59,581 nt of DNA. It comes from a virus. Each line of letters begins with the position of its first letter. Position 1 is the first letter of the stretch. The stretch lies in IMG/VR virus record IMGVR_UViG_3300044845_000879, positions 1-59,581 of that record; one strand, given 5' to 3'. The notes under the pieces were generated by a model. It was not told the origin of the DNA, made no database searches, and saw only the letters and a program-made list of their open reading frames with translations. Positions 17,639-43,275 of the stretch are shown piece by piece. A program made the position numbers and the translations under genes.

Positions 17639-18106
17639 TTAACAATAAGCTCCTGAACAATGTTTTTTACCGTCCAACCCTTTAATTTTTCCTTTACAAA
17701 CTTGAACGGCGTGACCATTACTATATGCACTAGGGTAGACATCGTACTTAGCCTTTGCGGACGCTTTACCTCTAGCACATAAAGGTGTACCTGTTTTTTT
17801 TCTACCTTCAGTCATTTCTTCATAATCCACATATTGTGATTCCTTATCCATTTCATTTTTTAAGAAATCAAATACTTGGTCCATATTTGTTTTTGCTTCT
17901 GAGATGTGGTCATCAGCCCAATCATGACCATTTTGAATAATATCATCAATCATGTTAGGGTCCATTTCCATAATCATTTCAATTTGTCTTTTCATTTGCT
18001 TTAAATTAGAAAAGAACATATAGTTTGCATTTTCAACTTCTTGTTCAGATAATACTCTTGTAACTAATCTTGTGATATCTGATTCTGTTAATTTAACTGT
18101 TTTCAT
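17639..18106 (-). CDS. Phage protein with conserved Cys/Tyr C-terminal domain
   Basis: In this 155-residue protein, the first 100 residues are acidic and helical, opening MKTVKLTESDITRLVTRVL. The last 50 residues carry a basic motif with LCARGKASAKAKYDVYPSAY and paired Cys. This RxKAxxKYDVYPSAY type of segment recurs in proteins of T4-like and jumbo phages, with no role I can state. It overlaps the preceding gene by one base. Confidence 0.6.
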   Translation of the reverse strand: MKTVKLTESDITRLVTRVLSEQEVENANYMFFSNLKQMKRQIEMIMEMDPNMIDDIIQNGHDWADDHISEAKTNMDQVFDFLKNEMDKESQYVDYEEMTEGRKKTGTPLCARGKASAKAKYDVYPSAYSNGHAVQVCKGKIKGLDGKKHCSGAYC

Positions 18107-19626: not shown

Positions 19627-19637
19627 TAATTTTTATT

Positions 19638-19645
19638 TATAAATA
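19638..19645 (-). promoter_or_regulatory. TATTTATA octamer before 19626
   Basis: It reads TATTTATA in the sense of the minus-strand gene, 11 bases before its ATG. The overlapping sequence also contains the motif on the plus strand (19634-19641), making a near-palindrome. Confidence 0.45.
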
Positions 19646-21184: not shown

Positions 21185-21386
21185 TGGTTCTTGATTGATA
21201 TTCGTCTAATATTTTATTGTATAATTCTTCAACATTATCCAAATAAACGGTTAAATTAATTATGTTATTTTTAGTTAATTCAAAATCTGTGGTTAATTTA
21301 TCCATATCATCAATTAACTTACTATTAGGGACATTTTTTATATCACCTAAATCTTTTAGTATTTCGTCAAATTCTTCTTTTTTCAT
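21174..21386 (-). CDS. Small coiled-coil protein (70 residues)
   Basis: This is an acidic, fully helical protein with heptad-like Leu/Ile spacing. It is wedged between two large structural genes with overlaps at both ends (one base upstream, eleven downstream). The overlaps support translation. It may be a chaperone or minor component of the neighbouring structural proteins; no family recognised. Confidence 0.55.
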   Translation of the reverse strand: MKKEEFDEILKDLGDIKNVPNSKLIDDMDKLTTDFELTKNNIINLTVYLDNVEELYNKILDEYQSRTNGR

Positions 21387-26764: not shown

Positions 26765-27353
26765 ATAGCTCTTTTATTTTTGTTTGTAATTCTTTTATTT
26801 TTGTTATCGAATGTTCTGTTTCAACATCCTTGTTATATAATGTTTCATATTTTATAACAATTTTTCCTTCAGGATGATTTAATAATAAGTTAGGATTTGC
26901 TGTAAGTAAAACGTCTATTGAATTCCACATTGAATTAATTGTTGGTTCACTATAAAATTTAACCATTTCAACAAGACAACCAAATTTTGAAATGAAGAAT
27001 AGAGACGCTGGTTTTGATTTACCAATTTCATCGGAAACGATTAAAATATCATGATTATCTCTCATATCTAAATAAAAGTCGTTGAAATCCATCATACTTG
27101 ATACCTCAACTGAACCCGCATGACCGAAGATTTCCATGGTATGTTCTTTGTATAAAAAATTATACAGTTCATCTTCATCTTTAAATTTCAAGTGTTTACC
27201 AATATCTAAACTACTCAAGTCAGAAATTACCTCATATTCAGATTTTTCCTCGTCTTCTTTGAATGGATTATCCAAATACCATTTTTCGTATTCCTGTTGT
27301 ATTTTTTTTAAAGTATCTCGTAAAACACCATTTAACTCTATTGCAATTCTCAT
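26757..27353 (-). CDS. HAD-fold, 5'-nucleotidase-like protein with altered active site
   Basis: The 198-residue protein opens MRIAIELNGVLRDT, which aligns with HAD motif I (hhhDxDGVLxD) of deoxyribonucleotidase-like phage enzymes. The first Asp (nucleophile) reads Glu and the second reads Asn. Later segments (HDILIVSDEIGKSKPASLFF) resemble motifs II and III. With the nucleophile gone, phosphatase activity is unlikely; it may bind a ligand or be a structural leftover. It overlaps the PhoH gene by four bases. Confidence 0.5.
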   Translation of the reverse strand: MRIAIELNGVLRDTLKKIQQEYEKWYLDNPFKEDEEKSEYEVISDLSSLDIGKHLKFKDEDELYNFLYKEHTMEIFGHAGSVEVSSMMDFNDFYLDMRDNHDILIVSDEIGKSKPASLFFISKFGCLVEMVKFYSEPTINSMWNSIDVLLTANPNLLLNHPEGKIVIKYETLYNKDVETEHSITKIKELQTKIKELYD

Positions 27354-28099
27354 TCTGTTTCGTTATCGTATTTTTGTAATATTTTACTAATTAAAGGATT
27401 TCTAACAATATCGTTTTTATCTTTAAATTCAAATGTTGAAATATATTTGTCGTCTCTAAATTTTTCAATTGCATCCCATAATCCACTGTGAGTTTTATTT
27501 TTGTATCTATCTGATTGCTCAACATCGCCAGATATAAAGAATTTACTATTAAACCCAATTCTTGTCAATAGTAATTTCATTTGACTTGGTGTTGCGTTTT
27601 GACCCTCTTCAAAAATTAAAATTGAGTTATCAATATTCATACCTCTCATAAACGCCAATGCAAACACCTCAACAATTTCAAGTTCTTTTAATTTTTCTCT
27701 AATTTCTTTTCCTACAATTTTATTTAACAAATAATAAGACGGGAAAATATAAGGGTCTAATTTTTCTTCAACATTACCAGGTAAACTACCTAATTTTTCT
27801 TCAGCCTCAACTGCAGGTCTTACTATAATAATCTTTTCATAAGGTGTGTTTGGATCAGCAAGTAAATCAATTGCTGCTTTCATAGTAATATAACTTTTAC
27901 CTACCCCTGCTGGACCTGAACATACCGTAACTTCACTTGAGGTTAATGTATCGTAGTATCTTTTTTGTGTTTGAGTTAGAAATTTTTCTTTGGTTTTCTT
28001 TTTTAATATTGAACAGATTACTTCTTTTCTTGTTTTATTGTGACCTTCTTCCATTGAAGGAGTGGGTACTGGTGATTTTTTTTGTCTTGTATTTGCCAT
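27350..28099 (-). CDS. phoH: PhoH-like ATPase
   Basis: This 249-residue P-loop ATPase of the PhoH family is a very common phage auxiliary gene of uncertain role (proposed RNA/phosphate-stress functions). Walker A is GPAGVGKS (62-69); RPAVEAEEKLGSLPG (94-108) is the typical PhoH signature; Walker B-like LIFEEGQNAT (161-170) replaces the usual DEAQN with EEGQN. The length fits the short, PhoH-domain-only phage type. The N-terminal 40 residues are basic. Confidence 0.93.
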   Translation of the reverse strand: MANTRQKKSPVPTPSMEEGHNKTRKEVICSILKKKTKEKFLTQTQKRYYDTLTSSEVTVCSGPAGVGKSYITMKAAIDLLADPNTPYEKIIIVRPAVEAEEKLGSLPGNVEEKLDPYIFPSYYLLNKIVGKEIREKLKELEIVEVFALAFMRGMNIDNSILIFEEGQNATPSQMKLLLTRIGFNSKFFISGDVEQSDRYKNKTHSGLWDAIEKFRDDKYISTFEFKDKNDIVRNPLISKILQKYDNETE

Positions 28100-28114: not shown

Positions 28115-29179
28115 TTATAAGTTATCAACTTGAGATTTAATCCATTCATATGTTTTTTTAAGACCGATGGACAAGGGTTGATTTACTTCCCAACCAATTG
28201 CACTTTTATATAATCTATTATCTGAATTTCTTCCTTTAACGCCTAAAGGGCATTTAAATCCGTATTTATTAAAAAATTCTTCTCCTTCTATATTTTTAAT
28301 TTTTATGTCTTTACCTGAAATAGCAATTGCCATACTTGCAAGTTGATTGATTGTCACCATTTCTTCACTACCAATATTAACTGGTTTTGATAATTCTGAA
28401 TCCATTAATCTTAACACCGCTTCAACGCACTCATCAACGTATAAGAATGAACGTGTTTGCACACCACTACCCCAAACTTCAATCTCACCACCATCAGGTG
28501 TTTCGGCAGCTTTTCTACACATCGCTGCTGGCGATTTTTCTTTACCACCCTTCCAAGTTCCCATTGGTCCAAAAATGTTATGAAATCTTGCAATTCTAAC
28601 ATTTAATCCATAGTTTCTATGAAATGATAAAAATAATCTTTCCGAAAATAATTTTTCCCATCCATATTCGGAATCTGGGTTTGCGGGATAAGCAGAATAT
28701 TCTTCACAATTTGGATTGTTAGGGTCTAACTGATTATGTTCAGGATACATACATGCCGATGACGAGTAAAATACTTTTTTAACTCCTTGTTCGACACATT
28801 CTTTAGCAACATTTAAGTTAATCATCGCCGAGTTATGCATAACATCCGCATCGTGTTCTCCTGTAAAAATATATCCTGCACCACCCATATCTGCTGCAAG
28901 TTGATAAACTTCGTCAAACGAAGTTACTTCGGAATAAGGTTGTTTGAGATATGAAAATGGTATAATTTTATTTTCGTAAGTTTCTACTCTAATAACTGCT
29001 TCCACATTTTTTGGGTCACGTAAATCGTAAGTTAAAAATTCATTACACATTTCTTCAGGTGTAAAATATTCGTGACTTTTTATGTCGACTACTCTTACGT
29101 AGTTACCTTCATCTTTTAATTTTTTTGCCAAGTGACCACCTATAAATCCGCCGCCACCAAGAATTAATATTTTTTTCAT
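28115..29179 (-). CDS. GDP-mannose 3,5-epimerase
   Basis: This 354-residue short-chain dehydrogenase/epimerase converts GDP-D-mannose to GDP-L-galactose (and L-gulose). It carries the NAD-binding GGGGFIGG (8-15), then LAADMGGAGYIF, YSSSACMYPE, Tyr172-x3-Lys176 and RFHNIFGPMGTWKGGKEK. These segments match plant GDP-mannose 3,5-epimerase closely, including Cys143 and Lys215 at the positions of the catalytic Cys and Lys. It supplies a nucleotide sugar to the neighbouring glycosyltransferases. The GDP-mannose source is presumably the host, since no mannose pathway gene is in the window. Confidence 0.9.
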   Translation of the reverse strand: MKKILILGGGGFIGGHLAKKLKDEGNYVRVVDIKSHEYFTPEEMCNEFLTYDLRDPKNVEAVIRVETYENKIIPFSYLKQPYSEVTSFDEVYQLAADMGGAGYIFTGEHDADVMHNSAMINLNVAKECVEQGVKKVFYSSSACMYPEHNQLDPNNPNCEEYSAYPANPDSEYGWEKLFSERLFLSFHRNYGLNVRIARFHNIFGPMGTWKGGKEKSPAAMCRKAAETPDGGEIEVWGSGVQTRSFLYVDECVEAVLRLMDSELSKPVNIGSEEMVTINQLASMAIAISGKDIKIKNIEGEEFFNKYGFKCPLGVKGRNSDNRLYKSAIGWEVNQPLSIGLKKTYEWIKSQVDNL

Positions 29180-29181
29180 AA

Positions 29182-29562
29182 TTAATATTCTACGTATTCT
29201 TTAACTTCTCTAATTTCAGAAGAAGTTCTTTCGTTTATTTCATTTTTTAATTTGAATCTTTTATCATTTGTGTGATATACATTTCTTGAAAGTTCAATAA
29301 ACTTTGAATTAAAAATTTTTTCAGTTTCAATAATTCTTAACATATCTTCAATCTCCCATAGTTTTGAATTAGTATCAACTAACTCGTGGTATAATTTTGT
29401 TATTTCTTCATCGTTTAAATAATCTGAAGAGAAGTTATATAATAATTCAAATTCTTTATTAACGTACACCAATTTTTCAAGGTTAGTTATTTTTATTTTT
29501 TTAACGTGAAGGATTGATAATTTGTCAATTAATTCTCCAACACTAACAGGTATTGTAATCAT
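29182..29562 (-). CDS. DUF6165-like protein
   Basis: This 126-residue helical protein begins ITIPVSVGELIDKLSILHVK and contains NSKLWEIEDMLRIIE and FIELSRNVYHTNDKRFKLK. The pattern matches DUF6165, a family of unknown function that commonly travels with glycosyltransferase and polysaccharide genes. Here too it sits between an epimerase and a methyltransferase. Confidence 0.75.
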   Translation of the reverse strand: MITIPVSVGELIDKLSILHVKKIKITNLEKLVYVNKEFELLYNFSSDYLNDEEITKLYHELVDTNSKLWEIEDMLRIIETEKIFNSKFIELSRNVYHTNDKRFKLKNEINERTSSEIREVKEYVEY

Positions 29563-29564
29563 AG

Positions 29565-30149
29565 TTATTTTTTTTTAAAAATCATTATGGTTTTTAGAAA
29601 CCAAGATGCAATTGCAGGTGAAACTGAATTACGTGCACTCATACTATCATTTTCCAAGTAGTCAAAACCTAAATCATTCATTTTTAAAATAACTTCATCA
29701 TTATTCATACAATTAACATGACCATCACCTAATTGACCAATGATGGCCCAAGACAATATTATTTTATTTGTAGTGAGTGATGTAATGTTATCTAAAAAAA
29801 TTGATTCATATTGCTTTGGTATATGTTCACCAACTTCTAAACAAATTGTGTTGTATGCGTTATTTTTTAAATTGTCATAATTTTTATAGTTTTTTATTGG
29901 GTTTGACAAATCCCAATTTTTAATAAATTTTAGACTTCCCTTTCTAACCTCACCTTCAAATCCGTGTAAGTTTGTGAATCCATTGTTATGTAAATTTTTA
30001 AGATAATCCCCAAAACCACATCCAAAATCAATTAATTGTTTATCCTTATCATCCTGTAGGTAATTTAAAATCCAATTTGCTAAGCTTGGGTCATGCACAT
30101 GGATTGCTTCTGTGTCATCTGATGTCCAATATCCTGTTTCTGTTATCAT
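29565..30149 (-). CDS. Class I SAM methyltransferase
   Basis: The 194-residue protein has the SAM-binding motif I QLIDFGCGFGDYL (38-50), an acidic residue after the second strand (HGFEGEV) and motif IV-like CLEVGEHIPKQY. It probably methylates a sugar or sugar-linked acceptor given its neighbours; the substrate is not shown by sequence. One base separates it from the upstream gene. Confidence 0.8.
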   Translation of the reverse strand: MITETGYWTSDDTEAIHVHDPSLANWILNYLQDDKDKQLIDFGCGFGDYLKNLHNNGFTNLHGFEGEVRKGSLKFIKNWDLSNPIKNYKNYDNLKNNAYNTICLEVGEHIPKQYESIFLDNITSLTTNKIILSWAIIGQLGDGHVNCMNNDEVILKMNDLGFDYLENDSMSARNSVSPAIASWFLKTIMIFKKK

Positions 30150-30150
30150 T

Positions 30151-31911
30151 TTATTTTTTATAAAAAAGTTTATCGTTTTCTAAAGTTTCTCTCACTTCAA
30201 AATTATTCTCAATAAGAATAGTTTCCATGTCACCTAAAGAATTCCCATTATTTTCTGTTAAGTTTTTATCCCATTCAAGATAAATGTAAACATCGTTACA
30301 ATTTTTAAGAAATCCTGTCATGCCCTCCAACACTTCTTTTTCAAATCCTTGAACGTCAATTTTAATAAATCCAATATTAAGATTTTTATTTTTTTTAATC
30401 CAATCATCAAACGTGGTGCAATTAACTGTTTCTTCAATATAATTTTTACTAAATGACATATTACTTATTGCAACATCTTTATTAAAAGATGTGTTGTCTG
30501 AACAATATGGTATGTAGATTGTTTCTTTTTTTGTTTTATTAGAAACTCCCATATTTACAATATTAAAATTATTACATTTGTTTTCTTCTCTTCCTAATTC
30601 TAACAATTTTATATTCATTCGTACAGGTTCAAAACCGTATACTTCATATCCGTTTAGTGAGGATGGAATACTAAATAAACCACAATTTGCACCAATATCA
30701 ATAATAATTTTTGATTTATCTACCAAACTTATTAACTCTTGTAATTTACTATATTCTTTATATTCCTCATTTACAACATTAGTTTTTTGGTAATAAAGAT
30801 TTGTAAAATAATCGTAGTTATATATTACGTAATTTAGATTATAACTATTTTTAAATTCATATCTGTTTATACTTGTTGATATCTTATTATTTATTTTTTC
30901 AAAATATTTGTCGTAGTCAAAATCATCTTGTTTAATTTTTGTTTTATCAAAAATTTTAGATTTAATTTTTTTAGAATCTCTTTCTGAAATATATTTTTCA
31001 AAATATTTTTCATAATCAAAATCTTTAAGGTTATTCACGTAATAGTGTTCACCAACAATTAATTTAAATTCGTTAGGGTCTTTATTACTACCATCAATAT
31101 CGCTATGACTAACCCTTTGGTTTGCCATTCCTGGAGTAAAAGAATAACAATTTAACTTACTTTCAATTTTGGAGCAATACACATGGTCAATTGCATAAGT
31201 GTCGGCAATGTTTTCATCAATCAATTTTAAAATTTTATCAATTGATTTTGGGTTAACCAAATAAGCATGTGTTGTAAATGCGCCATAAACTCTGTGGATA
31301 TATTTTGTATCAGTTAATTCAAAATCACCTGAAGGGTTCCATCTATCTTTATGTTCATTCAAATGGTAGTACGATGATAAAAAGAATATATCCCAATCTA
31401 AATTAAAGTTGTCTTCAATATACTTAAACCTGTCCAAAAAATCTTCACATAATTCAACATCATCTTCAAATATACCTAAAATTTTATTACTGTCATGTGT
31501 TTTAAGTAATTTATAGTGTGAAAGAAAACAACCCTTTTGACCTTTACTGTAAGCCTTTGGAAAATTAACATCATATTCATTATCATCAACAATTGCGTCA
31601 AAAAATTCATAGTTTATATTAAACTTTGGTAAATGAGAGTTAATCCAATCCCTTCTATCATTTCTTTTTTTTAGATTAATACATTTAAAATCTATATCAT
31701 CTAATTTAATTTTATTAAATTTAGTCTTACTTGGGGGTAAATTTTCTAAAGAATCTATTTTTTTATTTAAAAACCAAGAAGCTTTTTTTAATTCTTCCAA
31801 ATCATTAAAATCTTTATTTTTTGAATTTAAAATGTGAAACAATGAATTACCAACAGTGTATGACAAATTCCAATTCTCAATAACATCTATTATATTTTTA
31901 TCTAAATTCAT
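30151..31911 (-). CDS. DUF3310-like / GT25 / FkbM methyltransferase fusion
   Basis: This 586-residue protein has three parts. Residues 1-55 are a degenerate DUF3310 domain (IIDVIENWNLSYTVGNSLF, LEELKKASWFLNKKI) lacking the usual NHPxHYGG head. Residues about 75-270 are a GT25 glycosyltransferase (CINLKKRNDRRDW, GCFLSHYKLL, FEDDVEL at 148-154). Residues about 395-586 are an FkbM-type methyltransferase (IIDIGANCGLFSI, IGFIKIDVQGFEKEVLEG). Two repeats of a FDYDKYFEK element lie in the linker. One polypeptide could thus add a sugar and O-methylate it. The ATG at 31911 overlaps the previous stop as ATGA; an in-frame start at 31938 is less likely. Confidence 0.82.
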   Translation of the reverse strand: MNLDKNIIDVIENWNLSYTVGNSLFHILNSKNKDFNDLEELKKASWFLNKKIDSLENLPPSKTKFNKIKLDDIDFKCINLKKRNDRRDWINSHLPKFNINYEFFDAIVDDNEYDVNFPKAYSKGQKGCFLSHYKLLKTHDSNKILGIFEDDVELCEDFLDRFKYIEDNFNLDWDIFFLSSYYHLNEHKDRWNPSGDFELTDTKYIHRVYGAFTTHAYLVNPKSIDKILKLIDENIADTYAIDHVYCSKIESKLNCYSFTPGMANQRVSHSDIDGSNKDPNEFKLIVGEHYYVNNLKDFDYEKYFEKYISERDSKKIKSKIFDKTKIKQDDFDYDKYFEKINNKISTSINRYEFKNSYNLNYVIYNYDYFTNLYYQKTNVVNEEYKEYSKLQELISLVDKSKIIIDIGANCGLFSIPSSLNGYEVYGFEPVRMNIKLLELGREENKCNNFNIVNMGVSNKTKKETIYIPYCSDNTSFNKDVAISNMSFSKNYIEETVNCTTFDDWIKKNKNLNIGFIKIDVQGFEKEVLEGMTGFLKNCNDVYIYLEWDKNLTENNGNSLGDMETILIENNFEVRETLENDKLFYKK

Positions 31912-32525
31912 ATATTTTTGTTTACCCAAGACTCCCAAACAAAGTCATATTTATAATTGATTTCAAATCCATTTCCTTTTAATCCCTCAAATATTTTTTC
32001 ATAGTTTTCTTCATAATTTTCACAAAAGGTATGAAATTGTATTTGTAGGTATTTTACATTTTTTAAAAATCCTGTCTCAATCCAATTTAAAAGTAATGGA
32101 TATTCTTCACATTCAATGTTAATTTGAATTAAGTCAATTTTATTTAAATTATATTTGGATATAAAATAACCAATGTCGTACGAATCAACACTAATTTTTC
32201 TTTTTGAAACTTCAATTGTTTCTGAAGTTGCACACCCATTAACATACAAGTTTATTTTTTTATTTGATGTTGATATTGCAACTCCTTCAATGTTAACTTT
32301 TGGATTTTCACCAAAATTACGTGTTAACTCATAAACAAAATTAGGGACTGGTTCCACAATAATTAAGTTTGGATTAAACTTATCAATAATTTTTTTAGAC
32401 CATACTCCAGTAAATCCACCAAGTTCAATTACTTGGGAATTAGAATCTAACGGATAATCAATAATTTTAATTTCATCTCCTCTATCTCTTTCCCACATTT
32501 CTTGTGGGGTTAAAACATTTTCCAT
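31908..32525 (-). CDS. FkbM-family methyltransferase
   Basis: This 205-residue SAM methyltransferase has QVIELGGFTGVWSKKI (31-46) as motif I, LIIVEPVPNFVYEL as motif II, and LIQINIECEEYPLL replacing the usual IKIDVEGxE. FkbM enzymes usually O-methylate sugars or polyketides; a sugar hydroxyl is likely here. It is coupled to the GT25-FkbM fusion by an ATGA overlap. Confidence 0.78.
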   Translation of the reverse strand: MENVLTPQEMWERDRGDEIKIIDYPLDSNSQVIELGGFTGVWSKKIIDKFNPNLIIVEPVPNFVYELTRNFGENPKVNIEGVAISTSNKKINLYVNGCATSETIEVSKRKISVDSYDIGYFISKYNLNKIDLIQINIECEEYPLLLNWIETGFLKNVKYLQIQFHTFCENYEENYEKIFEGLKGNGFEINYKYDFVWESWVNKNI

Positions 32526-32530
32526 ATTTC

Positions 32531-33370
32531 TTATTGATTAATTCTTTTCCAAGTTATTGGTAATAACGCACTCCTATCGTGTTGAGTGTATGCCGAACCA
32601 AACCAATCTTCTTCTTTAGGACAACAAACTATCTTATTTTTATTTTTACTTAAAAATGATGACCACCAAGAAAATGTACTATTTGCAATAACAAAATGTT
32701 GACATAAACTTTGTGATACGAAATCTGTTATATAGTCGCTGTCGTAATCAAAATAGACAACTGTAACTCCAAATTTTTCAAACTTACCAAAAATAAAATC
32801 TTTGGTGTCTTCGTTATCTGTAAAAATTAAAATTTCATCAATTTTAGTTTCATTTAAAATAAAATTTATTGCATTTTCATAATAGTTAAGTGACATTGTT
32901 GGGTGCCACTTTTCAAAACCCTTATGACCACCACCAGTTTTTCTATCATATACATCTCCCCACCTAACATGAACACATAATTTTATTGTGTCTTTGGACA
33001 TTTTAGATAATGCTTTATCAATCCTTTCTTTAGAAAAAGATAATTCTTCAATTACCTCATTTTCAAATCCCTCAAGATATTTCCACGATTGGAAAAATCC
33101 ATTTATTTCCAAAAGACCTGAATTGCTAGGTATGTCGTGATATGCAAATGATGGTTCTTGGTGTGTTGATGATACATTATGTTTAATATCATTTACTGAT
33201 ATTTTATTTTTTAAATTGGGAAACAAATCGCAGTGATCCCATTCTTTTGGGATGTAATATTCAACATTACGTTTCATTGATTCTCCAACTACCGCACCAA
33301 TTCTAAAAAGTTGATTTCCAAATCTACCTTTTTCATGGTGTAATATTTCGGTATTAGTTAGTCCTATCAT
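32531..33370 (-). CDS. GT11 family glycosyltransferase (alpha-1,2-fucosyltransferase type)
   Basis: This 279-residue protein carries GRFGNQLF (15-22), the donor-binding HVRWGDVYD (134-142) and NSTFSWWSSFLS (230-241). These are the three signatures of GT11, which moves L-fucose (or a related 6-deoxy- or L-sugar) from a GDP donor to galactose. GDP-L-galactose made by the encoded epimerase is structurally close to GDP-L-fucose, so that donor should be considered. Confidence 0.88.
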   Translation of the reverse strand: MIGLTNTEILHHEKGRFGNQLFRIGAVVGESMKRNVEYYIPKEWDHCDLFPNLKNKISVNDIKHNVSSTHQEPSFAYHDIPSNSGLLEINGFFQSWKYLEGFENEVIEELSFSKERIDKALSKMSKDTIKLCVHVRWGDVYDRKTGGGHKGFEKWHPTMSLNYYENAINFILNETKIDEILIFTDNEDTKDFIFGKFEKFGVTVVYFDYDSDYITDFVSQSLCQHFVIANSTFSWWSSFLSKNKNKIVCCPKEEDWFGSAYTQHDRSALLPITWKRINQ

Positions 33371-33384
33371 AATTTTGATATGTT

Positions 33385-34440
33385 TTAATTAAATTTATCG
33401 TATTTCTCTCTATATTCAATATTGTTATAATAATCTAACATTGATTTATAGTCCATAGCCAATAATTTATCACACAATTTATGATTTTTGTCGTAATATT
33501 TATTATCCCCGTTACTAAATGGTGTTCTTGAATGTTCAAAATGATACACAAGATTATCTACTCTTGATACATTATATTTTAAAGTTATAAACCTATTTTC
33601 TCTTTCTTGGTCTTCAGGTCCATATCCAATAAAATTTTCATTTTCTCCACCACATTTTCTATATTTTTTTGTATTTGCAAAAACACAATGACCATATTTT
33701 GACGTAAAAGTTTTTAGTAAATTAGTATCAATTGAATTTATATCAAAATTTATATTAAACTCATCCCTGTTAAAACTTAAAGAAATTTCCCTTTGAAATT
33801 CACCATCACCGTAAGGATAAACAAAATCTGAATTACCATTAAGTATTAAATTTTGTGACTCAACGTAAGAGTCAACAGGTAAAATAACGTCAATATCATA
33901 ATTAACAACTACAGGTGTTTTTACAATATTTAACATTTCGTTTAATTGTTTTGTTCTGTGGTAGTAATCCAAATTATCTTTTTGAAGAATGTGATTTATT
34001 TTTAAGTTTTTTAATGAACTAATAAAATCTAATTTACTTTCTTCTTTAGTTAATTCATGTATAATAACATTTGTTTTAAAATTTTTATTTAAAAACCCAA
34101 GTACACTTACAGCGTTATTATATCTGTCCTTGGATTCAACACAAACTGGAATAATAAATGTTGTTTTTGTTAAGTCTTTTACGTCAATATCTAACTCATC
34201 AGTTTCGTCTTGTAAAGTAAAATCATTATCTTCTAATTTTTGTATTTTTCTTTCAATATACCATAAAGATTTTTTTAAATCTTCTAACTCAGTATCAATA
34301 CTTTTTTTACCCGCTCTTGAAATGTATTTTATTGCATTGCCAAGATGAAATCCTAAATCCCAAGATTCAATCACTTTAATGGCTTCATATGGATTATCTT
34401 CTCCACCATAATGTTCAGGATGATTTATTTGATTTTCCAT
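33385..34440 (-). CDS. DUF3310-glycosyltransferase fusion
   Basis: Residues 4-69 of this 351-residue protein are a complete DUF3310 domain (INHPEHYGG, IKVIESWDLGFHLGNAIKYI, SRAGKK, LEDLKKSLWYIERKI). This is a short phage domain of unknown function, normally found alone. After an acidic linker, residues 92-345 form a GT-A glycosyltransferase with a DxD (VNYDIDV, 179-185) and a GT7-C-like GYGPEDQERENR (272-283). The reading frame is continuous with no internal restart, so the fusion is real. A degenerate relative of the same head domain lies in the gene at 30151. Confidence 0.85.
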   Translation of the reverse strand: MENQINHPEHYGGEDNPYEAIKVIESWDLGFHLGNAIKYISRAGKKSIDTELEDLKKSLWYIERKIQKLEDNDFTLQDETDELDIDVKDLTKTTFIIPVCVESKDRYNNAVSVLGFLNKNFKTNVIIHELTKEESKLDFISSLKNLKINHILQKDNLDYYHRTKQLNEMLNIVKTPVVVNYDIDVILPVDSYVESQNLILNGNSDFVYPYGDGEFQREISLSFNRDEFNINFDINSIDTNLLKTFTSKYGHCVFANTKKYRKCGGENENFIGYGPEDQERENRFITLKYNVSRVDNLVYHFEHSRTPFSNGDNKYYDKNHKLCDKLLAMDYKSMLDYYNNIEYREKYDKFN

Positions 34441-34445
34441 TATGT

Positions 34446-35267
34446 TTATAATTTTATCATATTTTCTGTATATAAATCATCGGTAATGTATGTTGAATAC
34501 CCTGTACCGAGCCATTTGATTGGAGCGATGATTTTTTTATTTTTATTTTTTGATAAGTAACTACTCCACCAACTGAATGAACTATTTGAGATTATGTGGT
34601 GGTCACATAGTGACATAACACATAAATCAACATAAGGTGATTTTGAATTAACAACAGTAAAGTTTTCGTCATTTCCCCAAACATTATTGCACCATTCGTA
34701 ATCGTCAGAGCAAACTACAAAATGGTACTCATCTTTATTAAAATGTTCTATTGCGGGATTAAAGAAATCTAAACCTGTTAATGGATGATACGGATTAGGT
34801 ACTGCGGCATCAGTTCTTCTAACATGAATTGACACTAATGTCTTATCTGTCTTTGGTAGGTATGATTTTGCTGATGTTATAATAGAATCTTTAAATTTTA
34901 AAATGTCCATTATTTTATCTGAACAATGTTTAAAATATTTTTCTGATTGTAGATAACCATTAACATCCGTGTTGTCTAAAATATTAAACAAGTTTTCATC
35001 AAAATGAAAAAATCTTTCACTAACTCTTTTCTCAATTATTAAATCATCAGTGAAAAATTTTTGGTCAATATCAAAACATTCATTTATTTCAAAATATGCG
35101 ACAAAAGTCTTGTTTTCTCTTGTTGATGATATGTTTATTTGTTTTAGATTTTTTTTAGGAAATAAAACTTCATAGTTTAATTTATCCCCAATTCCGATTA
35201 AAGATGCGAATTGGAATAGTTGATTACCAAATCTTCCATTGTCACCTATGTTACTACATGTTATCAT
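34446..35267 (-). CDS. Second GT11 family glycosyltransferase
   Basis: This 273-residue protein has GRFGNQLF (11-18), HVRRTD (148-153) and NSSFSWWSSYLS near 229-240, the full set of GT11 motifs. It differs substantially from the GT11 at 32531 outside the motifs, so the pair probably has different acceptors or donors rather than being a recent duplication. Confidence 0.88.
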   Translation of the reverse strand: MITCSNIGDNGRFGNQLFQFASLIGIGDKLNYEVLFPKKNLKQINISSTRENKTFVAYFEINECFDIDQKFFTDDLIIEKRVSERFFHFDENLFNILDNTDVNGYLQSEKYFKHCSDKIMDILKFKDSIITSAKSYLPKTDKTLVSIHVRRTDAAVPNPYHPLTGLDFFNPAIEHFNKDEYHFVVCSDDYEWCNNVWGNDENFTVVNSKSPYVDLCVMSLCDHHIISNSSFSWWSSYLSKNKNKKIIAPIKWLGTGYSTYITDDLYTENMIKL

Positions 35268-35270
35268 AAT

Positions 35271-36089
35271 TTATTTTTTAAATGTTATCAACCAATGCCA
35301 ACCAAGTATAGATTCTAAATAACTAAAAATGGATTTTGGTATAAGTTTAATTATAGTTTTTTTATTATAGTTATGTTTTATATAATCCTTAATTACATAG
35401 GGAAAAATATGGTCTTTTCTAACAGATGTAATTTTAAAATTATTATCTAATTCCAACAAGTTTATTAATTCTTTTTTAGTGTATGTAAATGCTACAGGAC
35501 AATCTAATTGAGCTTCAGCGTAATATTGTATTGTTTTATTAAGGTTGAAATTAAATTTATACCCATTTCTAATGAAAAACTCAAATGTTTTCCATGAGTG
35601 TTTTGCATACATCATTATACGAACTTCAGTGTTTTCGTTCATATATTTTTTAATTTCGTCAAATACATTTTGTGGTGTTGGGGTATGATGAATAACTCCA
35701 AAAGAATATATTAAATCGTATTCTTCAATTGGAACAACTTTGGATAGTTCTTCAGCGTTTGCACAATAAAAATCGGCATTTAAACCAAAAATTTCAAACC
35801 TTTTTTTACACAATTCTAAAGACTTTTCAGATAACTCAACACATGTTAATTTAGCACCCGCTTTTGCAAAATTTATTGAATCGGTACCTATACCACATCC
35901 AATTTCTAAAACTTTTTTTCCTTTCCACTTTTCAAATTCTGCAAATTCTGGTATGTGTGGTTCTACAAAATATTTACGATGTTCTACGTCGTTAAAGTAT
36001 TCTTTACTACCAATTTCTTTTTTTGAATGTCTAATATTACATGGTCTACTATTCCAATAATTTTTAACATCTTTTACTGTTTTTGTCAT
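35271..36089 (-). CDS. SAM methyltransferase, Methyltransf_11-like
   Basis: In this 272-residue protein, motif I is [20 protein letters not shown] (59-78), with [15 protein letters not shown] and [17 protein letters not shown] following in the usual order. The C-terminal 90 residues are basic and aromatic and may hold the acceptor site. A sugar-modifying role is inferred from neighbours. The start overlaps the upstream gene by four bases. Confidence 0.82.
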
Positions 36090-36796
36090 ATTTTATTGTA
36101 AGGTGTTTTATTTCTAATTATGTTTACAATTGAATTTACCATTGGCATATTAACCTTATGGTCATTCAAAGGATTATTTTCGTTATAAATGTAAGTTATT
36201 GTTGAAATATGTCTATAATGTTTTTCACCTGACATTTCAAACATTGGAAACATAAACGCCAAATCGCCTGCTACACTCCAATAGTTTCCTTCAGAATCTT
36301 GTAAATCTTCTTCTTTAATTTTTTTCCATAACCAAGATTTCCATGTTCGTAAATGTGATAGAGTAAACCCTTGCTGTCTAATGTTATTAAAACTTGTGGG
36401 TGGTGTTGAAAATCCTTGAGAGCCATTACTATACTTAAATGAACCACTTGTCATCCAGACATTTTCATCTTGGTAAGTTTCATTAATTAATCCTAACACA
36501 TTTGAATTTGGTAACCAATCATCCCCATCAATTTCAACACAAATTTCATCATCAGGAACATTAAGACCACGAATGACTTGGTCATAATTCCCTGGTTGAT
36601 ACATCTTTGTTTTGTTTTCAATTAAAACAAATCTGTCATCCCCTTGTATTGTTTTTTTAATTATTTCAACCGTATTATCAGTAGATAAATCATCTGTTAT
36701 ATAACAAGTAAAATCTTTAAATCTTTGAGTCATAATTGTCATCAAAGATTTTTCAATAAAGTTTTCGCAGTTATATGATGTTGTTAAGATTATCAT
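36086..36796 (-). CDS. Family 2 glycosyltransferase
   Basis: This 236-residue GT-A enzyme has [20 protein letters not shown] at the start, [13 protein letters not shown], and a clear DGDDW metal-binding motif (near residue 90). It shares the stop/start junction with the UDP-sugar dehydrogenase gene upstream. Donor and acceptor are unknown. Confidence 0.87.
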
Positions 36797-37953
36797 TATA
36801 GGGTAATTTTGTATCCTTGAGGGTTAGTCCCTGGTTTAAAGAATTTTAATCTGTTATTATAAGATTCACTCATTTGTTGTAACTTATTTGTAATTGCATC
36901 AATTTCAATAACATGTAAGGTATAACCTTCATTTAACAAATCAACACACAATTGGAATTGTTGTGACTCCTCTATAATATCAGTACCTTTTTTATAGGTA
37001 ATATAATCCATTACAAATGGTACCATTCTATCAGGATTTTTTTGAATAAAATAGTCCTTAATGAAATTAGCGTGTTCTTTATTAAAATTGTCTACAGTTA
37101 AAGGTAAATTCAACTCCATTCCAAGATTTTTTGCAAAATGACCTAACGCTCGGTTATCTCTTGGTAAACAAGGACCACCAAATCCAAATCCATATTTTAA
37201 GTATTTTTTACCAACTCTTGAGTCTCCACCAATTGCACTTAAAACCATATCAATTTCACTTTGAATACCAGCCTTAATCATAATTTGTCCCATCATGTTT
37301 GCATAACTAATCTTTGTTGTTAAAAAGCAGTTAATGCCAATTTTGGTTATTTCTGCAGCTTTTGGTGACATTACATAAGCATTAACAGGTGTGGTTTGAA
37401 TCTTATTATAAATTTCAATTAATTGATTTGATAGTTCAGTATAGTCAGTCCCAATTAAAACAATGTCTGATTGTTCAAGACCTTTTACTATTTCACCTTG
37501 AGCAATGAATTCAGGGTTATATGCAACCTGAATGTTAAACATGTTTAATCTTGTTTGGATTTGTTCTACATCACCAGGGTTAGTTGTACATCCGACAATG
37601 AATTTCTTTTCGTATAAAGGGATGTTTAATGACGATGCGGTATAAAAATCTGCAACAACTTCAAATACTCTTGTTGTGTCGTAATTACCGTCTAATGTTG
37701 ATGGGGTTGCAACGAATGTAAAAATAACATCAGAGTTTTCAATAACCTCAATATTTTTAGTTGTTGCACTAAAATTTTTTGAATCCAACAACATTGATTG
37801 GATTAATGGTTCGTTTGTTAAACAAATTTTTTGGTTTAAGTTAAAGACATAATCTTCTCTAACATCAGATACAATTACTTCGTATCCGTTTTTTTCACAT
37901 AATAGAGCAAAAGTTAATCCTAATCTGCCTGCTCCGATAATTCCTATTTTCAT
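36796..37953 (-). CDS. UDP-glucose/GDP-mannose 6-dehydrogenase family enzyme
   Basis: The 385-residue protein oxidises a nucleotide sugar to the uronic acid with two NAD+. It has GIIGAGRLGLTFA (4-16), NPEF (146-149), KIGINCFLTTKISYAN (204-219) and the catalytic Cys262 in GFGGPCLPRD. UDP-glucose to UDP-glucuronate is the commonest reaction in the family; the sequence alone does not fix the sugar. The adjoining NAD synthase gene (four-base overlap) could support its cofactor demand. Confidence 0.88.
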   Translation of the reverse strand: MKIGIIGAGRLGLTFALLCEKNGYEVIVSDVREDYVFNLNQKICLTNEPLIQSMLLDSKNFSATTKNIEVIENSDVIFTFVATPSTLDGNYDTTRVFEVVADFYTASSLNIPLYEKKFIVGCTTNPGDVEQIQTRLNMFNIQVAYNPEFIAQGEIVKGLEQSDIVLIGTDYTELSNQLIEIYNKIQTTPVNAYVMSPKAAEITKIGINCFLTTKISYANMMGQIMIKAGIQSEIDMVLSAIGGDSRVGKKYLKYGFGFGGPCLPRDNRALGHFAKNLGMELNLPLTVDNFNKEHANFIKDYFIQKNPDRMVPFVMDYITYKKGTDIIEESQQFQLCVDLLNEGYTLHVIEIDAITNKLQQMSESYNNRLKFFKPGTNPQGYKITL

Positions 37954-38729
37954 ATTATTTCGTTTTGTTTTAAATCAAAGATTGGTATTGAAACCATTTT
38001 ATGTTTATTTTTTTCATTAAAGTTTTGGTACGTTTGGAGAACTTTAAATTCTTTTTCGGTGTGTGATATTTTATTAATACCATATTCCATAACCCATTCT
38101 AACTCTTCATAAGTAGCACCAATTTGAGATTCATCGTTTCTATCATCATCCCATAAACCGTCTGTTGGTGTTGCATCAATAATTTCTTGAGGAACTCCCA
38201 AATAACGACCAAGTTCTCTAACCTCTGTTTTATATAAATCGGCAATTGGAGAAATATCAACACCACCATCACCATACTTGGTAAAAAACCCAACACCAAA
38301 ATCCTCAACTTTATTTCCTGTTCCTATAACAATACCACTTGTAACTGTTGCTATATGGTATAATGTCATCATTCTTAATCTTGATTTGCTATTCGCATTA
38401 GCCAATTCAGATTTAAACGTTTGAGACATAAGGGTTTCAAAGGATTTAAATGTCTCACTTAATTCAATTTCAACCGTCTTAACATTTAATTTGGATAAAA
38501 ACTCTAATTGAAGGTTTGATAATGTTGTATTATTAAGTTTTGAATTCAACGGCATTCCAACAGCGATTGTTGGAATCCCCGTTTTTGCACATAAAGTAGA
38601 GACAACTGCGGAATCAATTCCACCTGAAACACCAATTACTAAAGTTTTGATGTTGTTGTTTAATACATAATTTTCAATCCAACGTTGTATTTCGTTTGAT
38701 AAATTTTCGTAATCTATAATTCTATTCAT
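37950..38729 (-). CDS. nadE: NH3-dependent NAD+ synthase
   Basis: This 259-residue protein catalyses the last step of NAD+ synthesis: deamido-NAD plus ammonia and ATP. The PP-loop is SGGIDSA (35-41); IGTGNKVEDFGVGFFTKYGD (135-154) and SPIADLYKTEVRELGRYLG are standard NadE stretches, followed by TPTDGLWDDDRNDE. All core motifs are intact and no glutaminase domain is present. It overlaps the sugar dehydrogenase gene. Roles could be cofactor supply for sugar oxidation, general NAD+ restoration in infected cells, or resistance to NAD-depleting defences. Confidence 0.92.
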   Translation of the reverse strand: MNRIIDYENLSNEIQRWIENYVLNNNIKTLVIGVSGGIDSAVVSTLCAKTGIPTIAVGMPLNSKLNNTTLSNLQLEFLSKLNVKTVEIELSETFKSFETLMSQTFKSELANANSKSRLRMMTLYHIATVTSGIVIGTGNKVEDFGVGFFTKYGDGGVDISPIADLYKTEVRELGRYLGVPQEIIDATPTDGLWDDDRNDESQIGATYEELEWVMEYGINKISHTEKEFKVLQTYQNFNEKNKHKMVSIPIFDLKQNEII

Positions 38730-40366
38730 TATAAAATTTTTATATACTCGTTTTTTATTTGTTGAGCAACTTTTAAAGTATTGTATTTTTCAATATCTAC
38801 AGGAGGGTCAAATTTTTCTTTAGATAAGATAAACCCACCAGCATCTACTTTGTATATCCAACTTGGTTTACCACACATCCATCCTTCAATAGTTGTTCTA
38901 CCTAATTGAATTCCTGCTGTCTCATAAGATTTAAAAATATAATTTTCAATATTCCATGTTGATGGGAAATGTTTTACGTGAGATTCTAATAAAACGTTTT
39001 CCAAATAATTTCCATTGTTTTCACCTACTAACCACAATTCTTTACCAATTTCTCTGGTGTATTCAATTAAATCTAAAATTGACTCTTTTCTTAAATAATC
39101 TATAGTACCAACAAATAACACATAATTTTCTGATGGTATATTTTTTGGTTGGAATTTTTCATTGTCAACTGGATTATATATAACCTCAATCATTTCTTCA
39201 GGTACATCAAAATTTTGAATTAAATGAGATTTAATCTCAGGTCTAATTGCGATGAATTTTTTTATACTTTCGTGTATTACTGGATTTTCTAACTCTTTAG
39301 ACATAACCTCAGAATGTATTGTACAAATTTTATCTAATTCGGGGTACATACTAAGTATTCTTTCCGCAACAGGTTTGTGTTGGATATGAATAATATCATA
39401 ATCAACTTCAGATATACGATATAATGCGTTTGGTGTAGATGGTGTAAAACCTTCAGGTGTGTTCATTCCCCATTGACCATCGCCAAGTTTAAACCCTGGT
39501 GCGTTTTCAAATGAAATACATTTAATACCTAATTTTTTTGCCATATCTGTAAGTGGACCTCCAATTTGAGAAAGAATGGTAACACTACAATTTAATTTCA
39601 TTAAACTTTTGGCTAACTCATAAACATATAATTCTGAACCAGTAAACCCTCTAAAAAATAAACAAGATATTAATACTTTTAATCTTTTGTTTGGGTCAAA
39701 AGGAATTTTACTTGGTAAATTTTTACCGTACTTTTGAACAAAAAATTCTCTGTTTTGCTCCCATTGTTCATTAGTTTGTCCAATAGATTTGTGAGTAATT
39801 CTAATATTAGTAATTACACCAACCTTGACACCTTCTAAATGATTTTTAAAACAAAATGCTATATCATAAAAGTGAAACCCTTTAAAATCTTCATCAAAAT
39901 TATGTTTAATCTTTGATTTACTTAACGCAATAAAAAGACCATCAACAATTGCAGTCTGTCTAATTGATTTACCAAAATCTTCAGAATATTTTGATGTCCA
40001 TTTTTTTCCACCATTTTCGTGGTTAACAATACCAATCATATTTTTTCTACGATTGGTTTCCCACCATTTACCAGTTTCTGACATATGTGTGGTTCCAGCA
40101 ACACCTAAAATACCATACTCACTACTTTCAAAATGAGTCTTCAATTTGTAGTACCAACTATTGGTATCAAAGTAAATGTCGTCATGACACAATACAACTA
40201 TGTCAGTTTTTGATTCTTCAAGTATTTCATTATAAACTTGAGAAAGGGATTTCTCCCCATTATTAATTTTTTCTATCACTTCAATTTTCTTGAAACCTGA
40301 ACTTTTTTTCAAGTATTCAATAAATTTTGGATTATGTTCTCTTGTTGAGTATCCTACTGTTATCAT
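38729..40366 (-). CDS. Two-domain glycosyltransferase (GT2 StrF-like plus GT4-like)
   Basis: In this 545-residue protein, residues 1-225 match the GT2 subgroup named after StrF (MITVGYSTREHNPKFIEYLK, VVLCHDDIYF, GVAGTTHMSETGKW). Residues 235-545 are a GT-B domain (SCLFFRGFTGSELYVYELAK, VIYNPVDNEKFQPKN, VLFVGTIDYLRKESILDLI, QLGRTTIEGWMCGKPSW). Two transfer steps in one chain suggest a disaccharide unit. The start overlaps the HAD gene by four bases. Confidence 0.82.
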   Translation of the reverse strand: MITVGYSTREHNPKFIEYLKKSSGFKKIEVIEKINNGEKSLSQVYNEILEESKTDIVVLCHDDIYFDTNSWYYKLKTHFESSEYGILGVAGTTHMSETGKWWETNRRKNMIGIVNHENGGKKWTSKYSEDFGKSIRQTAIVDGLFIALSKSKIKHNFDEDFKGFHFYDIAFCFKNHLEGVKVGVITNIRITHKSIGQTNEQWEQNREFFVQKYGKNLPSKIPFDPNKRLKVLISCLFFRGFTGSELYVYELAKSLMKLNCSVTILSQIGGPLTDMAKKLGIKCISFENAPGFKLGDGQWGMNTPEGFTPSTPNALYRISEVDYDIIHIQHKPVAERILSMYPELDKICTIHSEVMSKELENPVIHESIKKFIAIRPEIKSHLIQNFDVPEEMIEVIYNPVDNEKFQPKNIPSENYVLFVGTIDYLRKESILDLIEYTREIGKELWLVGENNGNYLENVLLESHVKHFPSTWNIENYIFKSYETAGIQLGRTTIEGWMCGKPSWIYKVDAGGFILSKEKFDPPVDIEKYNTLKVAQQIKNEYIKIL

Positions 40367-40749
40367 TTAAAAACTTCTATTTTGTGTTCTACTTTTATTA
40401 ATTCTCCCCATCTACCATCATACCTTGTTGCTCTAACAATATGATTATCAATCCAATGGTAGTTACCACCCCTTGGCTTGTTAAACAAGATGTTATGGTA
40501 TTTAAAACCATGTTTATCTAACCATTGTTTGGTGACAATTTCGTGTTCATCTGTTCTTGATGTAAAGAAAGTAATGATATGACCATCATCAAACCAAGAA
40601 TTAATTATTTCAACAGAACCATCATATGGTAATGATGTTTCCATTCTCCAAGGTTCTTCGTTTGGAATATCATCGGTGATTGTTCCATCAATGTCAATTA
40701 AATAATTTTTAACACCATCAGGTAATGCGGGACTAATATTATTTTCCAT
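40363..40749 (-). CDS. HAD-superfamily phosphatase-like protein
   Basis: This short 128-residue HAD protein has an intact motif I DIDGTITDD (19-27), motif II TFFTSRTDEH and a basic motif III region (FNKPRGGNYHWIDNHIV). There is no cap domain, as in phage polynucleotide or sugar-phosphate phosphatases. A role in end repair or in dephosphorylating a sugar phosphate is possible. It overlaps the dUTPase stop by one base. Confidence 0.75.
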   Translation of the reverse strand: MENNISPALPDGVKNYLIDIDGTITDDIPNEEPWRMETSLPYDGSVEIINSWFDDGHIITFFTSRTDEHEIVTKQWLDKHGFKYHNILFNKPRGGNYHWIDNHIVRATRYDGRWGELIKVEHKIEVFK

Positions 40750-41369
40750 TATATTCCTGTACTACCAAAACCGTTGTTACCTCTATCTTTATCCTCAACT
40801 TGACCAACTTGTTCAATGCTAACATATTTACCTTGAACTACGGGGCATAAAACACCTTGACCCACTTTCATTCCTTTTGGAATTGTTACTGTTGTGTTGT
40901 TGGTGTTAAACACAATAACTTGTATTTCGCCAGTATATCCTTGGTCTACTGTTCCTGGAGTGTTAAGAACTGTTAATCCTTGTTTAATAGCTAAACCACT
41001 TTTTGGTCTAACTTGTATTTCATAACCTTCTTCAAAAGAAACTTTTAGACCTGTTGGAATTAAAGCTCTGCCAAATGGCCCAATAATAACCTCTTCAGTT
41101 GCATGTAAATCAAACCCTGAATCTGAAGGGTATGCGTATTTTGGAAGAACCGCGTCTTCATGTACTAATTCAACTTTAATTGTTCTTAATTTAGCAATAT
41201 TGTTAATTTCTTTTTCCATATCTTCAAATGAAAGACCTAACATGTCTTCTAATTCTTTTTGATATTCTTCGTCGGGTTGAATACCCATTTCAGATTGAAT
41301 TTTTTTAAATTGTTTTTCAATCTCTTCTCTAATTTTTGGGTCAAAATGACCAAGTTGTCCTAAATCCAT
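40749..41369 (-). CDS. dut: dUTPase with N-terminal extension
   Basis: This trimeric dUTP diphosphatase keeps uracil out of phage DNA. All main motifs are visible: PSDSGFDLHA (81-90), RPKSGLAI (121-128), NTPGTVDQGYTGEI (136-149) and RGNNGFGSTG (196-205). At 206 residues it exceeds the usual 140-150 because of about 60 extra acidic, helical residues at the N-terminus, which I do not recognise. Confidence 0.93.
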   Translation of the reverse strand: MDLGQLGHFDPKIREEIEKQFKKIQSEMGIQPDEEYQKELEDMLGLSFEDMEKEINNIAKLRTIKVELVHEDAVLPKYAYPSDSGFDLHATEEVIIGPFGRALIPTGLKVSFEEGYEIQVRPKSGLAIKQGLTVLNTPGTVDQGYTGEIQVIVFNTNNTTVTIPKGMKVGQGVLCPVVQGKYVSIEQVGQVEDKDRGNNGFGSTGI

Positions 41370-42070
41370 TATTTTAATTCGTTTAATTTTTTTATTACAT
41401 CAATTAATACTGACACATCTTTTTCACAATATTTTACAATACCTTTAATATCTTTTTTAATCCAAAAAGCATCGTGAACTTTATTACCTGTAATTTCCAT
41501 TGTTTTAGATGACTCAACACCTAAACAAACACACATAAGTTCTAATGAAGCAATTGAACCATATCCACCATATTGCCATACTTCTTTGGTATCTAACGCT
41601 TTAATTTCCCATGGTTTTGTGTCGTGACCTGGTAAAATTTTAGGTGGCATGATACCATTCATAATCATTCTTTTTGCCATCATTGGAATATCAAATCCTT
41701 TTACATTGTGACCACATAAGTAAAACCCAAGTTCACCAACTCTATATAGAAGTTTTTGAACATCTTGTAATAGTTTCTTTTCATCAGGATCGCTAAATGA
41801 TTGCATTTTAACATCACCTTTATCTGTTACGAATGCAACGCTAACACATGCAATTCTTGCGAATTCAGGAACCAATGCCGATCTATTTACAAACATCTGA
41901 CCAACACCTTTATCGGCGTCTTCAGGAAATCTTTTTTGAAACCAATCAAAATAGTTTTCAAATTGAAATGAGAGAGCTTCGTTATATTTGACCAAAGAAT
42001 CCCAATCAGGTTGAACACCTACAGTTTCAATGTCTAAGAATAATAATTTTGTAATTGGTATGTTTATCAT
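41369..42070 (-). CDS. DnaQ/PolB-like 3'-5' exonuclease
   Basis: The 233-residue RNase H-fold exonuclease has Exo I FLDIETVG (11-18), Exo II GHNVKGFDIPMM and Exo III YCEKDV, supplying the four metal-binding acidic residues. It lacks polymerase domains. It may proofread or process DNA or RNA ends in replication or recombination. It overlaps the glycosyltransferase upstream by four bases. Confidence 0.85.
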   Translation of the reverse strand: MINIPITKLLFLDIETVGVQPDWDSLVKYNEALSFQFENYFDWFQKRFPEDADKGVGQMFVNRSALVPEFARIACVSVAFVTDKGDVKMQSFSDPDEKKLLQDVQKLLYRVGELGFYLCGHNVKGFDIPMMAKRMIMNGIMPPKILPGHDTKPWEIKALDTKEVWQYGGYGSIASLELMCVCLGVESSKTMEITGNKVHDAFWIKKDIKGIVKYCEKDVSVLIDVIKKLNELK

Positions 42071-43275
42071 TTGATTATTGATTTATAAAATTGTGCCCTA
42101 TCTTTTGTTACGTTATTTAAATCGTATTTGTCTTTAACCGTTTCATATAATCTTTCACCCATGTCTTTTGCCATATTTGGGTTTTTAAGTAATTTTTCAA
42201 TGTATTTAGACCAATCAGAATGATTTCTTTTCTCATCTACTAACATTGCATTTCCGTCAACATATTCACCATTTTTTAAACAATGTTTTAAATCAATAGT
42301 GTAAGGTCCAATATCAGAGGCAATAATCGCTTTTTTATAGAAACCAGCCTCAATAACTTTTAATTGTGATTTAACTCTATTAAAAAGATGGTTTTTAATT
42401 GGTGCCAAAGATACATCAAATTTTGAATAATTCTTAGCATAAGATGTAACAGGTTTTGTCCACACTCGTAAATAAGGTTCATTCATTTCGTTTGGAAATG
42501 ATTCTTGAGTGTAATTTAATAAGAATTTTTTATAATCTTCAGAAACAGTTGTTAGATTTTGTGTAAAGATTTTTTCATATTGTGCCCAAACAGTTTCATG
42601 AGGTAAGATGTTTCTTTGTTTTTGTTCTTTTGTTTGTTGATTTATTTCAGTAACCGTACCTCTAGTGTCAAATCCACATAAAACAAATTGTAACTTGTCT
42701 TTATACTGAGATAATCTTCCTAAATCTAATAATTGTAAGTCATGTAAGTGAGATGAACCACCTAACCAACCAACTCTTAATCGGTCTGATTCAGGGGTGG
42801 GCTCTTTAAATTGTGGTTCGTTTGGATTAATTGCGTTAGGAAATACGACAACATTCTTGTTTAATTTTTTAATTTCATCCGCAAAAATTGTTGTGGTTGT
42901 TGTAACATATTTTGAAACCTTAAGATTTGCCATGATTTTTTCGTTAATCTTATTAACTCTAATAATATCATGAATTGGATGTTCTTTTCCTGGCATCCAA
43001 TAGTCATCAATATCACAAACCGTTATAATCTCTAATGAGTTTAACATTTGGATTAATCTGTTAGCCCTATCAAAATCAGAACCAATACTTCTATGGAATA
43101 CAACAATTTGATACCCTTTCCAAAAATTCATATCATCGTATGATGGTTCGTAAATAATATCTACGTGGAAATCGTCACCGTAAAGATTTTGTAAAAAGAC
43201 GTGAGGGTCTACTGACCTAAATTTACCCACACCTGTTCTATCAGAGGGGACAACTAATACTTTGATTTTAGACAT
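42067..43275 (-). CDS. GT4-like glycosyltransferase
   Basis: This 402-residue GT-B enzyme has an N-terminal domain beginning IKVLVVPSDRTGVGKFRSVD. The C-terminal domain includes LRVGWLGGSSHLHDL and FDVSLAPIKNHLFNRVKSQLKVIEAGFYKKAIIASDIG, where an E-containing donor-phosphate motif is expected. It begins the long overlapping series that runs down to 24621 and has a 56-base leader with its own octamer. Confidence 0.83.
   Translation of the reverse strand: MSKIKVLVVPSDRTGVGKFRSVDPHVFLQNLYGDDFHVDIIYEPSYDDMNFWKGYQIVVFHRSIGSDFDRANRLIQMLNSLEIITVCDIDDYWMPGKEHPIHDIIRVNKINEKIMANLKVSKYVTTTTTIFADEIKKLNKNVVVFPNAINPNEPQFKEPTPESDRLRVGWLGGSSHLHDLQLLDLGRLSQYKDKLQFVLCGFDTRGTVTEINQQTKEQKQRNILPHETVWAQYEKIFTQNLTTVSEDYKKFLLNYTQESFPNEMNEPYLRVWTKPVTSYAKNYSKFDVSLAPIKNHLFNRVKSQLKVIEAGFYKKAIIASDIGPYTIDLKHCLKNGEYVDGNAMLVDEKRNHSDWSKYIEKLLKNPNMAKDMGERLYETVKDKYDLNNVTKDRAQFYKSIIK

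Follow-up and report, generated by a model that had tools for sequence, protein, structure and literature searches.

A DUF3310-glycosyltransferase fusion in a hypervariable phage glycan island and related fusions in other phages

DUF3310 (PF11753) is a widespread phage family whose role has been described only for T7 gp1.7 and SaV. PMC12846349, citing Tran et al. 2010, describes T7 gp1.7 as a dTMP/dGMP kinase, and its phosphorylation of dTMP and dGMP also appears in PMC7693777. In T3 gp1.7 the domain occupies residues 86-150 of 163, in the C-terminal half of the protein. DUF3310 also occurs in lactococcal SaV, which is toxic and is involved in AbiV sensitivity (PMC8306868). Mycobacteriophage DUF3310 proteins are strongly toxic (PMC11373665, PMC10700055, PMC11797047), this toxicity to hosts being seen on over-expression (PMC10700055, PMC11797047), and the domain also figures in a Caudovirales gene-retention table (PMC4981718). 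It is mostly a protein of its own: 91 of 116 distinct viral ORFs carry no extension of at least 60 aa. In cellular genomes, where extensions were judged by eye, 58 of 67 loci carry none over 80 aa and none of the 67 holds a DUF3310-glycosyltransferase fusion. The preliminary description of the DNA studied here had called DUF3310 a usually stand-alone protein of unknown function; the counts bear out the first part of this statement, and the work on gp1.7 and SaV makes the second incomplete. We found no literature on a DUF3310-glycosyltransferase fusion in a search that had most subscription journals outside its reach.

The window analyzed in this work is the whole of a 59,581-base virus record (IMGVR_UViG_3300044845_000879), which lacks end repeats and is therefore probably a fragment of a genome. 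Its terminase, portal phrog_213, protease and major head protein phrog_138 mark it as a T4-like virus. By head protein, Microcystis phage Mel-JY01 and Flavobacterium phage immuto (42-43%) come closest among isolates, and by terminase Flavobacterium phage immuto (26%) does; we infer a possible Bacteroidota host. All features described below lie on the minus strand. The two genes of interest belong to a hypervariable glycan island (28115..37953), delimited by Pfam and by comparison with sister records, which also contains an epimerase, DUF6165, FkbM and other methyltransferases, two GT11, a GT2 and a UDP-glucose dehydrogenase. The sister-record comparison defines conserved anchors on both sides of this island, PhoH on one (27350..28099) and a series comprising a GT2_5-GT4 gene, an isomerase/PNK-like gene, dUTPase, exonuclease and GT1 on the other (38729..43275). 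Indeed, nine sister records share PhoH on one flank and GT1, exonuclease and dUTPase on the other, the GT2_5-GT4 gene is whole in eight of the nine, and the content in between varies. Moreover, neither the DUF3310 nor the GT-A of the gene at 33385..34440 was found in any of 17 sister records with a head protein 80-97% identical, which are possibly incomplete. Given the variability of the island and the absence of both parts from these 17 records, the fusion thus lies in an exchangeable part of the genome.

The gene at 33385..34440 encodes a 351-aa DUF3310-GT-A fusion, recognized by Pfam and phrog matches. As the preliminary description had proposed, a complete DUF3310 is followed in frame by a GT-A enzyme with a DxD motif. 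The domain begins at residue 3-5 of the product and spans residues 5-63 (34252..34428); it passes the curated PF11753 cut-off of 24 over the whole model (54.6 bits, E 1.1e-14, model positions 1-60). It keeps all 14 of the positions that are invariant among 48 intact domains (P8, H10, Y11, I21, G34, N35, K38, Y39, R42, K46, D54, L55, K57 and Y61), and it is 66-80% identical to its closest stand-alone copies, which are found in Flavobacterium phage immuto, Arthrobacter phage Zucker and IMG/VR contigs. Its predicted model (pLDDT 81) is all-helical, with four helices (8-11, 20-26, 30-42 and 48-72) of which the C-terminal one is long, and resembles viral models labelled DUF3310, "SaV-like" or "nucleotide kinase". 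Among solved structures, none resembled the domain by fold (best E 5.4), and sequence searches returned nothing beyond coiled-coil or weak partial matches. The glycosyltransferase is complete and occupies residues 87-351 (33388..34182), where PF02709 (Glyco_transf_7C) scores 29.3 bits against a curated cut-off of 23 and phrog_15655 matches residues 88-348. The D182-x-D184 motif (33889..33897) and N267-E-N-F270 are invariant in an alignment of 39 sequences, and the only PDB match of the GT-A profile is beta-1,4-galactosyltransferase 1 (E 0.0044). Residues 74-86 form the junction between the two halves (34183..34221). Since it contains no ATG, GTG or TTG codon, a separate start of the glycosyltransferase is impossible there, and an internal start was rejected. 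The product recurs in five other IMG/VR contigs, identical or with one residue changed. On the contigs compared, we thereby show a fusion that is real and fixed in its population.

The second gene (30151..31911; 586 aa) was resolved with Pfam and a custom profile into a worn DUF3310, GT25 and FkbM methyltransferase. The GT25 domain (PF01755; 31183..31680) passes its cut-off of 24 with 64.1 bits, and PF05050 identifies the FkbM domain (30196..30699); the preliminary description had not mentioned this C-terminal part. It had proposed that the gene opens with a worn DUF3310 deprived of its NHPxHY head, and had considered that profile searches might reject DUF3310 at both N-termini. Pfam recognizes the intact copy; on 30151..31911 it gave no DUF3310 match even at E<=1, and phrog_5839 matched at E 0.0087. 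A DUF3310 profile built without the worn copy nevertheless detects the worn segment with 33.5 bits (E 1.4e-8 among 7,848 ORFs), and residues 7-57 (31741..31893) scored alone reach 39.5 bits, whereas none of 20,000 shuffles exceeded 12.1. Chance resemblance was rejected on this test, and by the custom profile only, the segment is assigned as a homolog of DUF3310. It keeps six of the 14 invariant residues (I21, G34, N35, K46, L55 and K57); P8, H10, Y11, K38, Y39 and R42 are gone, and D54E and Y61F are substituted. No NHPxHY-like sequence was found in frame upstream of the start, whose ATG overlaps the stop codon of the upstream gene. The gene recurs in six other contigs, including a diverged variant in which 47 codons differ, the frame is still open and the only change in the domain is L38V. 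If the lost residues served catalysis or a nucleotide role, that function is probably gone, and with eight of 14 otherwise invariant residues missing, a catalytic role common to the intact and worn copies appears unlikely.

The preliminary description had also proposed two independent fusions in one cluster, and this is unproven. The worn copy is 38% identical to its intact neighbor, whereas it reaches 45-46% with stand-alone copies, identities that do not support a recent local duplication of the neighbor's domain. Its branch in the domain tree is very long, too long for placement. Recurrence elsewhere nevertheless supports the general idea. A search for the architecture across viral proteins, as had been suggested, revealed DUF3310 N-terminal to an enzyme of about 315 residues in 13 contigs (77-100% identity). 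Five relatives of this enzyme (50-59%) have no DUF3310, and the surroundings of three of them, judged by eye, resemble glycan genes. In an AlphaFold model of the fusion, with a mean pLDDT of 76.9 and values mostly over 80 in the enzyme part, the enzyme matches the GT-B glycosyltransferases MshA, SdgB, WaaG and TarM, and we regard it as a predicted GT-B glycosyltransferase. A Methyltransf_24/RMNT_CmcI-like methyltransferase, SAM-type and resembling sugar O-methyltransferases, carries a C-terminal DUF3310 in 19 contigs. Both fusions lie in a glnA - DUF3310 - DNA-methyltransferase locus, the place of a stand-alone DUF3310 gene in other viruses. The domain tree, which is built on few columns, places the methyltransferase-fused copies within a mostly stand-alone, supported clade (100/97) that leaves out the GT-B- and GT-A-fused copies. 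The tree placement, the different partners and the different loci mean that DUF3310 was fused to glycan-type enzymes repeatedly.

We propose, with a probability of roughly 40%, that the main role of DUF3310 on these enzymes is that of a helical module for assembly or docking. These enzymes would build or decorate a glycan of the virion or of the host surface, and DUF3310 would be a compact helical module that gathers enzymes of the same pathway or brings them to a common partner. The worn copy might retain the scaffold role alone, because most universally conserved residues are gone and the helical core is still recognizable; the intact copy may additionally retain a gp1.7-like nucleotide activity. 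Assembly or docking is preferred because the partners differ in fold and chemistry (GT-A at 33385..34440, GT25 with the worn copy at 30151..31911, GT-B and Methyltransf_24/RMNT_CmcI), because either terminus is used and because the worn copy has been retained. Use at either end of chemically dissimilar enzymes is more in keeping with assembly or docking than with a common substrate. Several observations stand against this proposal: intact fused copies hold 14/14 invariant residues, beyond what a pure scaffold needs, relatives of the GT-A exist without DUF3310, and two of the kinds of fusion take the place of a stand-alone DUF3310. A more ambitious version is doubtful. In this version, a portable assembly or recruitment module would have been attached independently to glycan enzymes in several phage lineages to yield a multi-enzyme glycosylation complex, with the worn GT25-FkbM copy as the scaffold-only partner of the intact GT-A copy. 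If it were true, stand-alone DUF3310 proteins such as SaV and gp1.7 would also act as oligomeric scaffolds.

Both the GT-B and the methyltransferase fusion take up the slot of a stand-alone DUF3310, and a fusion may therefore be two jobs on one chain. Adjacent genes would have been joined by loss of a stop codon, the uncoupled halves each keeping their old job, nucleotide or host-takeover for DUF3310 and glycan for the transferase, and the worn copy would be a decaying passenger. This explanation can be held tentatively, and it is nearly as good as assembly or docking because the usual DUF3310 slot is occupied and the intact copies keep every invariant residue. It is further favored by the worn copy, from which the majority of these residues are gone, and by the GT-A relatives and the bulk of DUF3310 proteins, which exist as separate chains. 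Such uncoupled halves are less easily reconciled with a fusion located in the glycan island when neither part is present in the 17 sister records, or with a worn copy that is still open and in frame. Moreover, the DUF3310-GT-B fusion persists though its enzyme half has diverged to 77% identity, and all identifiable large partners are glycan-type, although these viruses have many enzymes of this type.

DUF3310 might also handle nucleotides in cis, as a gp1.7-like kinase or binder which recycles the nucleotide by-product of the transferase or supplies the nucleotide of the sugar donor. We consider this unlikely. In its favor, T3 gp1.7 has the domain too, T7 gp1.7 phosphorylates dTMP and dGMP according to PMC12846349 and PMC7693777, and the intact copy retains H, K, Y and R at the invariant positions. 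However, the reported gp1.7 substrates are dNMPs, as opposed to the NDPs that are the usual by-product of glycosyltransferases, one fusion partner is a SAM-type methyltransferase, the worn copy is devoid of K38, Y39, R42 and the NHPxHY head, and the product of 33385..34440 has no counterpart of the N-terminal part of T3 gp1.7, of about 85 residues. Binding of a nucleotide-sugar, which the preliminary description had also raised, fits poorly with the existence of a methyltransferase partner and with the loss of residues in the worn copy. Finally, a sequencing, assembly or frameshift artefact joining two adjacent genes, conceivable for a metagenome assembly and a record without end repeats, was rejected and has a negligible probability, since both genes recur in at least five other contigs (the intact fusion identical or with one residue changed in five), a diverged variant exists and the junction offers no start codon.

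Natural fusions to enzymes with known chemistry give a direct handle on the function of DUF3310, with halves that can be separated and swapped, and their recurrence makes its role testable. The intact and worn copies in one cluster are in addition a ready-made test of a catalytic versus a scaffold role.

Compared with known systems, the two genes depart from the usual organization of PF11753, whose members mostly stand alone: the product of 33385..34440 is a glycosyltransferase that begins with the domain, and the copy in 30151..31911 is worn. T3 gp1.7 shares the same conserved residues with the domain of 33385..34440; it differs by its own N-terminal part (residues 1-85), absent here, and by having no glycosyltransferase. 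Relatives of the GT-A are frequent in marine cyanophages and related contigs, and none of those found in viral contigs (39-49% identity) carries DUF3310. The cyanophage-type GT-A (phrog_15655; P-TIM68 AIR93520, S-SCSM1 QFG06386) is 42-44% identical to the enzyme of 33385..34440 and lies in similar glycan clusters with an epimerase and further transferases, but the relatives found lack DUF3310, unlike 33385..34440. The GT25 of cyanophages (ACG-2014f) and of the huge phage LR756508 is 26-38% identical to that of 30151..31911 over the compared part, and these matches stop short of both the worn DUF3310 and the FkbM domain. The GT-B and methyltransferase fusions have the same DUF3310 subfamily as 33385..34440 and glycan-type partners; they differ in enzyme fold and in locus (glnA - DNA methyltransferase), and in the methyltransferase fusion DUF3310 is C-terminal, whereas it is N-terminal in 33385..34440. 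To conclude, all parts belong to known families, and it is their architecture and its recurrence that are new.

DUF3310 was also found beside or fused to other enzymes in other viruses. The gene order glutamine synthetase, DUF3310, DNA methyltransferase recurs in many of them (loci L043, L083, L087 and L088, together with many other IMG/VR loci), and a methyltransferase of the RMNT_CmcI or Methyltransf_24 type carries a C-terminal DUF3310 domain on 19 viral contigs; such fused genes lie at 1877-2710 of L087 and on L208-L226.

Within the window, the gene at 30151-31911 (-) joins, in this order, a worn DUF3310 domain, GT25 and an FkbM methyltransferase in one chain. Two glycosyltransferases, Glyco_tranf_2_5 and Glyco_transf_4, likewise share the single ORF at 38729-40366 (-), whose entire length is conserved (58-74%) in eight sister phages and whose first half alone is matched in a ninth. 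A 1398-aa virion-like protein (46066-50262, +) with a C-terminal Laminin_G_3 lectin domain adjoins the glycan genes, and it might be a glycan-binding or glycosylated tail protein. Three large proteins of 506, 512 and 698 aa (18106-23482, -) had no match in Pfam or PHROG.

An N-terminally extended dUTPase and a PolB-type exonuclease (40749-42070, -) sit within the run of glycan genes, in an order kept by sister phages. The glycan island further holds an NAD-synthetase-like gene (37950-38729, -), which is conserved in several sister phages; as in the window, the glycan cluster of cyanophage P-TIM68 (L031) also includes an NAD-synthetase-like gene.
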